Source: Pseudemcibacter aquimaris (GTDB lineage Bacteria; Pseudomonadota; Alphaproteobacteria; Sphingomonadales; Emcibacteraceae). From it: a stretch of DNA of 64,000 nt. Location: NCBI RefSeq assembly GCF_028869115.1, contig NZ_CP079800.1, forward strand, positions 1,054,001 to 1,118,000. The letters are read 5' to 3'. The notes under the pieces are model-generated. The model searched no databases. It was not told where the DNA came from and was given only the letters and a program-made list of their open reading frames with translations. Of this stretch, positions 38,430 to 49,643 are shown one piece after another (position 1 is the first letter of the stretch; every line of letters starts with the position of its first letter). The position numbers and the translations under genes were made by a program.

Positions 38430-38675
38430 ATGGACTTAATTGGTTATAGCATCACATTTTTTGTTTCTTGGTGGATTATCTTATTTATGGTTCTGCCTCT
38501 TGGCGTCAAAACGCATCACGAATCTGATGAAGAAATCACAGACGGTGTTGAGGTGGGGTCACCTGTTCATGCAAATATTAAAAAGAAAATGGTTCTAAAT
38601 ACAATCATTACAGTTTGTTTTATGATTGTTGTAGGACTTGTTGATTATTTTGATTTGGTATCGCTGAAACCATAA
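38430..38675 (+). CDS. DUF1467 family small membrane protein
   Basis: 81 residues with two membrane helices (about 7-27 and 55-75). The stretch WWIILFMVLPLGVKTHHESDE and the cytoplasmic GVEVGSPVHANIKKKMVLNT match the DUF1467 pattern. It stands between mce and proS in many alphaproteobacteria; the function is not known. It is the likely last gene of the nuo-to-mce transcript. Confidence 0.88.
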   Translation: MDLIGYSITFFVSWWIILFMVLPLGVKTHHESDEEITDGVEVGSPVHANIKKKMVLNTIITVCFMIVVGLVDYFDLVSLKP

Positions 38676-38690
38676 TTTAATTCAGGCATA

Positions 38691-38715
38691 AAAAAAGCAA
38701 GGGTAAAACCTTGCT
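38691..38715 (-). terminator. Intrinsic terminator, minus strand; weak on the plus strand
   Basis: Read on the minus strand, GCAAGG, TTTTAC and CCTTGC are followed by seven T residues. On the plus strand the same hairpin is followed only by CTTCTTT, so it may end the DUF1467 transcript weakly. No minus-strand protein gene feeds it, which supports a small RNA upstream on that strand. Confidence 0.75.
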
Positions 38716-38840
38716 CTTCTTTGGTGTAGTGAGTTTGTTACCAAATTCTTTTTTATTTTTACTTAAGAGTTTCCTCGCTCCCAAACTTGGGTCTCACTTG
38801 TGATAAGAACCTTAGTGGAGACTTATGCGACTGTCACCCC
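38691..38840 (-). ncRNA. Candidate small RNA, minus strand, about 150 nt
   Basis: On the minus strand this stretch reads as consecutive hairpins. GTCTCCACT pairs with AGTGAGAC (one bulge). Next comes CCCAA-GT-TTGGG, then GAG-GAAA-CTC and TTTG-GTAA-CAAA, both with GNRA-type loops, and finally a perfect intrinsic terminator. GNRA loops and the T-run exist only on this strand. Against it, the outer ends (GGTG and CACC) pair slightly better as plus-strand RNA. No long frame is present. A poor promoter (TTGCAA, 17-18 bp, AAATAT) lies upstream on the minus strand. It does not fit tmRNA, SRP RNA or the single-rod fold of 6S RNA. Confidence 0.42.
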
Positions 38841-38941
38841 AAAAATGAAGATAACTGTAATATTTTTGCTATATGTGTTATTTTTGCAACATATTGATCT
38901 TTTGAGCAGCTCTATCCTATGATAGAGGCAGGAGAAAGCAG

Positions 38942-39445
38942 ATGCCAATGACCAGTTTCAGTACATTTTTAACCATAATAAGTGCATTAACCCTGCAAGA
39001 ATCAGTTGTGCCAGATCCTGATGTATTACCACCACAAGGAATGGCGCAGGAACAAATAGAGCGAATTATTCTGGTTACACCAGCGCATTGCAATTTGTTA
39101 ACCCCGCATATTCCGGATGCTGATGTGGAATATAACCCGGGTAAGGATGTAAGAGGGCGTGATGTGGTGCCAGCCGATCTTAATGGTGGTGGGGACAGTC
39201 TTGGGATTGGTCAAAATGGGTATTCGTTTTATTTAACCCATGATGCATTAAGGGACGCGAACTTAAATGAAAAATATGGTTTAACTGGATCACAAGAAGG
39301 AAAAATTATCCTTGGACAGGTTACGGTTAAGGATGGCGATGTTCTTTGGAATGGTGCATCATTGCGCGAAGCTGACCGAAACCGTATATATATGCTCTGC
39401 GACGAAGAAAGACGCACAAAAAAGCGCCCAATTATCAAAAGGTAA
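38942..39445 (+). CDS. Hypothetical protein with N-terminal signal-like segment
   Basis: I do not recognise the family by name. Of the 167 residues, the first 20 or so are hydrophobic (FSTFLTIISALTL) and may be a signal peptide, though a basic N-terminus is lacking. The rest is hydrophilic, with a central block VEYNPGKDVRGRDVVPADLNG, a single cysteine pair (C50 and C152 by approximate count) and a basic end. AGGAGA precedes the ATG. It lies alone between DUF1467 and proS, behind a CTCTATC-CTAT-GATAGAG hairpin at 38910-38927. Confidence 0.72.
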   Translation: MPMTSFSTFLTIISALTLQESVVPDPDVLPPQGMAQEQIERIILVTPAHCNLLTPHIPDADVEYNPGKDVRGRDVVPADLNGGGDSLGIGQNGYSFYLTHDALRDANLNEKYGLTGSQEGKIILGQVTVKDGDVLWNGASLREADRNRIYMLCDEERRTKKRPIIKR

Positions 39446-39516: not shown

Positions 39517-40818
39517 ATGCGTCTTTCCAAACATTTTATTCCTACGGTTAAGGAAAACCCAAAAGAAGCAGAAATCGTATCGCATCGTCTGATGCTACGT
39601 TCCGGTATGATCCGTCAATCAAGCGCAGGTATTTATATCTGGTTGCCAACAGGATTGCGCGTTCTTAATAAAATTGCCAACATCGTGCGCGAAGAACAGA
39701 ACCGCGCTGGCGCGATTGAATTATTAATGCCGACAATTCAACCTGCTGAACTTTGGCAGGAAAGCGGCCGTTATGATGCATATGGTAAAGAAATGCTGCG
39801 TATCACAGACCGTCATGAGCGTGATATGCTTTTTGGTCCAACCAACGAAGAAATGATCACTGATCTTTTTAAAAATAATGTGAAATCATATAAAGACCTT
39901 CCGTTAAATATGTATCATATTCAATGGAAGTTCCGCGATGAAGTCCGCCCGCGTTTTGGCATTATGCGTGGCCGTGAATTTCTAATGAAAGATAATTATT
40001 CATTCGATCTTGATTTTGAAGGTGCAAAAGAATCATACAACAAAATGTATGTGGCTTATTTGCGTACTTTCGCGCGCCTTGGACTTGTTGCTATTCCGGT
40101 TAAGGCCGATAGCGGTGCCATCGGCGGTGACATGAGCCATGAATTCCAAATTCTGGCGGAAACCGGTGAAAGTACACTCCATTATGATAAGGCCATTGAA
40201 GACTTTGATCTATCAAGTCTGACGGGTGATATCGATGATGAAACAGTTGCAAAACTGCAAAGCTATTACGCGATGGAAGAAGAAAAGCATGACGCGGATA
40301 ACTGCCCGGTTGCCGATAGTGATCTAAAAACCGCAAAAGGGATCGAAGTTGGTCACATTTTCTATTTCGGCACAAAATATTCCGAAAGCATGGGCGCGAC
40401 TGTTGCTGGCCCTGACGGGAAAGAAGTAAACGTTGAAATGGGTTCATACGGTATTGGTGTTTCCCGCCTTGTTGGTGCACTGATCGAAGCCAACCATGAT
40501 GATAACGGTATCATTTGGCCGGAAGCGGTGGCCCCATATAAAGTCGGGCTTATTAATCTGCGTTTTAAAGATGAAAATTGTACGGCCGCATGTGATGCAC
40601 TTTATAACAAGCTAGAAGCCGCAGGGATTGAAGTTTTATATGATGACCGTGATGCGGGCGCAGGTGCCAAATTTGCGGATATGGACTTAATTGGTGTTCC
40701 GTGGCAAGTTGTTGTTGGGCCAAAAGGTCTTGAAAAAGGCGTAATTGAACTTAAAAATCGCCGTACTGGGGAACGAGTGGAGCTGACAGAGGAAGAACTG
40801 CTCGAAAAATTAGGATAA
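39517..40818 (+). CDS. proS: Prolyl-tRNA synthetase
   Basis: Class II enzyme charging tRNA-Pro. At 433 residues it is the short alphaproteobacterial form without the about 180-residue INS editing domain between motifs 2 and 3; only a short linker joins [12 protein letters not shown] to the next motif. Motif 2 is [19 protein letters not shown], and motif 3 ([16 protein letters not shown]) precedes the anticodon-binding domain. Mis-charging with alanine would have to be corrected elsewhere. Confidence 0.96.
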
Positions 40819-49530: not shown

Positions 49531-49545
49531 CCCCTTACTTTCACA

Positions 49546-49615
49546 TGCAGGTATTTGTTTATCCCCTACATATTGGGATCGACACACCGGTGTTCTTCGG
49601 AACTCAGCACCTGCA
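49546..49615 (+). promoter_or_regulatory. Structured rpsB leader, possible S2 autoregulatory site
   Basis: TGCAGGT (49546-49552) pairs with ACCTGCA (49609-49615). Within this stem are ATCCC/GGGAT (49561-49565 with 49575-49579) and GTTC-TTCG-GAAC (49592-49603), a UUCG tetraloop. The result is a closed three-way junction ending 28 nt before the rpsB ATG. Regulation by S2 is known for rpsB leaders in gammaproteobacteria; for this RNA it is inference. Confidence 0.55.
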
Positions 49616-49643
49616 GAGGATTAACCGGAAAAGGAATTTTATT

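Follow-up and report, generated by a model that had tools for sequence, protein, structure and literature searches.

What is transcribed toward a leftward-pointing intrinsic terminator into which no minus-strand protein gene runs? In the window (the whole 64,000-nt stretch of Pseudemcibacter aquimaris DNA that was analyzed, G000:C1:1054001-1118000), such a terminator lies in a slot flanked on one side by a convergent operon for pantothenate kinase, RNase J, a glyoxalase-fold protein, and a DUF1467 protein and on the other by a divergent small ORF and then proS. An earlier note on this DNA had proposed a small RNA on the minus strand at 38691 to 38840. The features of the slot and its neighbors are as follows.

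38430 to 38675, plus strand: DUF1467 protein gene (PF07330), the convergent neighbor.
38690 to 38717, minus strand: intrinsic terminator with a 7-U run, probably also terminating plus-strand transcription of the DUF1467 operon.
38690 to 38801, minus strand: small RNA of ∼112 nt, a candidate alphaR8 (aR8) sponge, placed by the promoter and terminator positions and conserved in 11 genus copies.
38809 to 38814, minus strand: -10 element TAAGGT (consensus TANNNT) after a 17-nt spacer, with the T, the A, and the last T invariant in 11/11 copies.
38832 to 38837, minus strand: -35 element GTGACA, invariant in 11/11 genus copies.
38846 to 38901, no strand assigned: conserved upstream block of TGTTGCAAAAATAACACA-like inverted repeats, from the alignment of 11 genus copies.
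38942 to 39445, plus strand: small ORF of 167 aa with no Pfam match, the divergent neighbor.
39517 to 40818, plus strand: proS, prolyl-tRNA synthetase (PF00587 and PF03129).

No minus-strand ORF of at least 60 aa was found from 38676 to 38941, in agreement with the earlier remark that no minus-strand protein gene feeds the terminator, and the terminator itself was present as described. The hairpin GCAAGGGTAAAACCTTGC occupies 38697 to 38714, and its leftward 7-T run is the plus-strand A run at 38690 to 38696; stem and T run are retained in all 11 copies from genus g1, the alignment set used for column conservation. The rightward T run is variable among relatives and the leftward one constant, and the hairpin can terminate rightward as well, for the DUF1467 operon. 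Since the GTGACA and TA...T columns form a promoter, the transcript was placed at ∼38801 to 38690 on the minus strand, with a 5' end that was estimated from the promoter, possibly with an error of a few bases. A minus-strand scan of 46 homologous loci from 15 families for the pattern NTGAC[AG]-N16-18-TANNNT upstream of the core gave 39 hits, compared with a mean of 0.59 in shuffled sequences, and on the plus strand the same pattern preceded the complementary core at 2/46 loci. Terminators were detected on the minus strand at 36 of the 46 loci, and after the core on the plus strand at none, by a simple detector that recovered 13/20 real alphaR8 terminators. This survey did not include G007, G425, and G337, whose flanks were too short. 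By its sequence signals alone, the element thus has its own promoter and terminator, as a stand-alone transcript would.

That the minus strand encodes a small RNA is supported by the conserved promoter, the conserved terminator, and conservation across genera, so that the candidate of the earlier note was in this respect borne out. Its interval holds for the RNA part, while ∼38802 to 38840 is promoter rather than RNA. The outermost pairing, which had been taken to favor the plus strand slightly, therefore involves untranscribed DNA; the outer GGUG...CACC pairing was also rejected as a closing stem, its 5' part being the -35 element. The block at 38846 to 38901 is a probable operator or regulator site common to the small RNA and the divergent ORF. 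These repeats, together with a hairpin that could also end the DUF1467 operon, would suit a slot that makes no RNA at all and consists, between its two operons, of regulatory DNA and a terminator acting in both directions. This account is extremely improbable, as it leaves unexplained the near-invariant core, the promoter with its 17-nt spacing, and the match to alphaR8 described below.

The DNA of the small RNA was kept in 10/12 genus relatives at 74 to 81% identity. The relatives with the exact core are metagenome-assembled genomes deposited as Emcibacteraceae, Kordiimonadaceae, or Alphaproteobacteria, and a search of 296 genomes of the order returned this core in 11, all from genus g1; homologues outside the genus were therefore sought by synteny. 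The earlier note had pointed to hairpins with GNRA loops. GAG-GAAA-CUC was unchanged in 11/11 copies, but the GUAA loop was variable, with GGTAAC retained solely by the window and the relative L003. Fold z-scores were -2.03 on the minus and -2.16 on the plus strand, and RNAalifold found two-sided change at 1/29 pairs, so the compensatory stem changes suggested as a check were nearly absent where conservation among relatives was evident. Neither the strand nor the existence of a structure is settled by folding. With z near -2 on both strands and internal covariation almost missing, what is conserved is the sequence and not its own fold, and the idea of a structured RNA whose identity lies in its own hairpins was rejected. 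The hairpin-like segments are mainly stretches complementary to alphaR8, and pairing in trans accounts for their conservation better than the RNA's own fold does.

A conserved sequence could also be coding. The core contains an in-frame GTG in 9/11 genus copies, from which a micro-ORF V[RK]PKFGSEETL could be read, and two variable core columns are near-synonymous. However, one base after the start is deleted in G004, G007 lacks the start, core length and frame shift in other genera, and no Shine-Dalgarno site lies upstream of the core within the predicted transcript. The micro-ORF was accordingly rejected and deserves hardly any credence.

The clue to a partner came from genus g3, in which Rfam matches to suhB/mmgR (alphaR8) were found on the other strand beside DUF1467. 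The core of the small RNA, CCCAAGUUUGGGAGYGAGGAAACUCUU, is complementary to the conserved CUCCC core of alphaR8/MmgR (RF00519). In G000, the genome of the window, an RF00519 search located alphaR8 at C1:2065118-2065194 (44.7 bits), 0.97 Mb from the small RNA and next to an FGase gene (PF05013), which is described as the usual place of alphaR8 (PMC12559287). The family passed the Rfam cutoff in 81/99 genomes. Published work places it throughout the Alphaproteobacteria, Rickettsiales excepted (PMC12559287). When the alphaR8 core was compared with 12,790 tiles of the window, its best partner was the small RNA element at -35.0, with the next unrelated tile at -31.0 and a mean of -12.2 (SD, 3.8). 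Complementarity to the alphaR8 seed was thus found within the same genome, as expected of an alphaR8 sponge. For the full-length RNAs, duplex prediction gave three collinear sites able to pair.

38765 to 38791, minus strand: pairing site 1, CCCAAGUUUGGG-AGC-GAGGAAACUCUU against alphaR8 AAGAGCAUUUCCUCCCUAGACUUGGG, from complementarity and own-versus-swapped tests.
38736 to 38745, minus strand: possible pairing site 2, UUUGGUAACA against alphaR8 UGUUACC, with the GUAA hairpin; poorly conserved.
38722 to 38729, minus strand: pairing site 3, CUACACCA against alphaR8 UGGUGUAG, specific to the window's family, f1.

For the own-versus-swapped test, each core from the slot, on its DUF1467 or its proS side, was paired with the top alphaR8 of its own genome or of others; sponge cores were picked by their likeness to the family core and not to the genome's own alphaR8. 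Among 17 genera of the order, own pairs gave -45.3 versus -39.7 (SD, 0.92) for permuted ones, and among 30 genera, -47.0 versus -41.8 kcal/mol with others' alphaR8; none of 20,000 permutations was as good in either set or among 17 families, and 1/20,000 was among 12 genera outside the order, counts that are not exact probabilities because genera share history. At class level, 29 loci had been inspected, with 12 accepted and 17 rejected (L214 reached 14/18 but without the architecture). The pairing counts left out the genomes in which no sponge was found (G002, G012, G020, G028, G029, G030, G039, G050, G033, and those of f6) and the sponge-bearing G019, G021, G022, G024, and G025, as well as G026, whose best alphaR8 match lacked a recognizable core.

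Compensating changes in the core were also seen by eye in several families and at several positions: CUGAGC with GCUCAG in f5, GAGCC with GCUC in G038, UUUGGCC with GGUCAAA in G045 of f2, CCCAGAAC with GUUCUGGG in G416, and CUCGGG with CCCGAG or CCCGGG in G306, G411, G373, and G425. At a second, family-specific site, GGUGUAG was present in 17/18 f1 alphaR8 RNAs, matched by CUACACC or CUGCACC in 13/18 f1 sponges, and these motifs occurred in 0/31 genomes outside f1. G-U-keeping substitutions numbered 63 versus 30 in the wide alignment and 30 versus 13 at the genus level; in the core only, the bias was weak and unconvincing alone (30 versus 20, and 24 versus 16 by genus). The two RNAs were jointly absent from G002 (99% complete; alphaR8 at chance level, E = 0.057) and G039 (95% complete; E = 0.18), with no sponge found in either, and also from G012, a genome 53% complete. 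Against a sponge count G001 and G032, whose own alphaR8 paired worse than most others', and some core substitutions that break pairs with alphaR8. No sponge was found near proS or DUF1467 in the alphaR8-bearing G020, G028, G029, G030, and G050. Overall, that both RNAs change in matching ways across many bacteria suggests a genuine and ancient pairing.

The same covariation might arise if the plus strand of the slot encoded an alphaR8 paralogue, whether decayed or functional; the minus strand would then be its mere complement, and the core would covary through shared targets. Plus-strand RF00519 scores of 34.3 bits in G306 and 32.8 bits in G330 fit such a paralogue, as do the several alphaR8 copies described as frequent in families (PMC12559287). 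We regard it as quite unlikely: plus-strand terminators after the core were found at none of the 46 loci by a detector that recovered 13/20 of those of alphaR8, promoters favored the minus strand 39 to 2, no RF00519 match was obtained in 38600 to 38960 up to E = 10, and in 28 genera without G306 and G330, whose slots hold the alphaR8-like copy, the own-versus-swapped signal survived with 0/50,000 permutations.

It is likely, from the sequence comparisons, that the ∼112-nt minus-strand RNA acts in trans, pairing with the alphaR8 of its genome and sequestering it. It would be made from the minus-strand promoter, and its duplex with alphaR8, probably on Hfq, would mask the UUUCCUCCCU seed or trigger alphaR8 decay. 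Target mRNAs of alphaR8 would be derepressed in this way, as with CrfA and SisA in Caulobacter. An ordinary trans-acting small RNA with its own mRNA targets, for which the alphaR8 complementarity is secondary or alphaR8 is the regulator, would be compatible with published work in which sponge RNAs may have further targets and CrfA was initially seen as an mRNA regulator (PMC12559287). That arrangement is rather unlikely here, because conservation is highest in the segment that matches alphaR8 and changes in step with it, and the second site matches alphaR8 as well.

Among known RNAs, tmRNA and SRP RNA had no match anywhere in the window, and the only 6S (RF00013) match in the genome, at G000:C1:304294-304450 (44.4 bits; cutoff, 46.4), lies elsewhere; the exclusion of all three in the earlier note thus stood, and the match at 304294 to 304450 is the probable 6S RNA of G000. 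The small RNA shares its core with alphaR8/MmgR/suhB (RF00519) but as the reverse complement, which makes alphaR8 its putative target and not its family. The best reading is that it is a proS-linked sponge of alphaR8 working like CrfA, which was experimentally shown to be a sponge of the alphaR8 small RNAs SisA to SisD in Caulobacter crescentus (Vogt et al. 2025, PMC12559287). As described there, CrfA likewise is a stand-alone small RNA, addresses the same family, and has a G/A-rich segment that complements the UUUCCUCCCU seed, but it pairs through its second stem-loop (G49-C63), whereas the core in the window lies ∼10 nt from the predicted 5' end; this comparison draws on the published description of CrfA. 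The crfA transcription start site is listed at 3,781,500 in NA1000 (PMC5988900).

The proS linkage and the core indicate that the small RNA is probably a diverged homologue of the Rhizobiales small RNA aR9 (RF02343). The aR9 model scored 21.7 bits in the window (E = 0.21), mostly from the terminator and below the cutoff of 45, so the RNA was not filed as an aR9 member; L083 and L085 scored 24.6 and 24.9 bits. Searches in which part of the candidates were scored gave weak matches in 3/290, 1/7, and 1/40 genomes, none of them over the cutoff. One, in G545 (35.3 bits), carries the same core immediately upstream of proS in opposite orientation, so that the element lies beside proS on the opposite strand both there and in the window. 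At L243 and L244, the other two loci of the 290-genome search, no proS ORF was recognizable; the case for homology is therefore built on G545, synteny, and the aR9 consensus. The core of this consensus and the alphaR8 consensus form a duplex of -37.1 kcal/mol (2/2000 shuffles as good). Judging from synteny, the rhizobial small RNA SmelC289 is probably aR9. SmelC289 and its relatives are described as adjoining proS (PMC3927594). No published function of aR9 was found in the open-access PMC literature.

Tentatively, the proS-linked RNA, aR9 in rhizobia and the present one in Emcibacteraceae and other families, might be an ancient class-wide alphaR8 sponge born antisense to a copy of the alphaR8 gene. 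In G306, the slot downstream of mce/DUF1467 (L197) carries the alphaR8-like element of 34.3 bits on the plus strand and, on the minus strand, a promoter of the sponge type, a possible intermediate. Elsewhere only the seed complement would have survived and then coevolved in trans, and CrfA would be a counterpart that either moved or evolved independently. If aR9 and alphaR8 are sponge and target throughout the class, a role could be assigned to a whole old family of small RNAs, and the sponge described in one species in 2025 would be part of a widespread circuit and offer an example of a sponge with a possible origin on the strand opposite its target gene. MmgR/alphaR8 touches carbon storage and nutrient uptake.

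Linkage to proS persists in genus g3, where DUF1467 has moved off. In 10 g3 genomes (L087 to L093 and L096 to L098; G017 to G023 and G028 to G030), the alphaR8 gene lies directly downstream of DUF1467, with trpS next after it in 7, and the sponge, where found, remains with proS elsewhere; alphaR8 and its putative sponge thus share a neighbor gene in related genomes. The 167-aa ORF is retained between the small RNA and proS in several genera and is gone along with the small RNA in G002 and G012. Upstream of alphaR8 in the window's genus, a TGTGNYATTTTTG stretch similar to the TGTTGCAAAAATAACACA repeats hints at a common regulator. Elsewhere in the window, 49542 to 49640 gave a borderline Rfam match to the rpsB leader/small RNA (RF01815, 40.6 bits; cutoff, 40).
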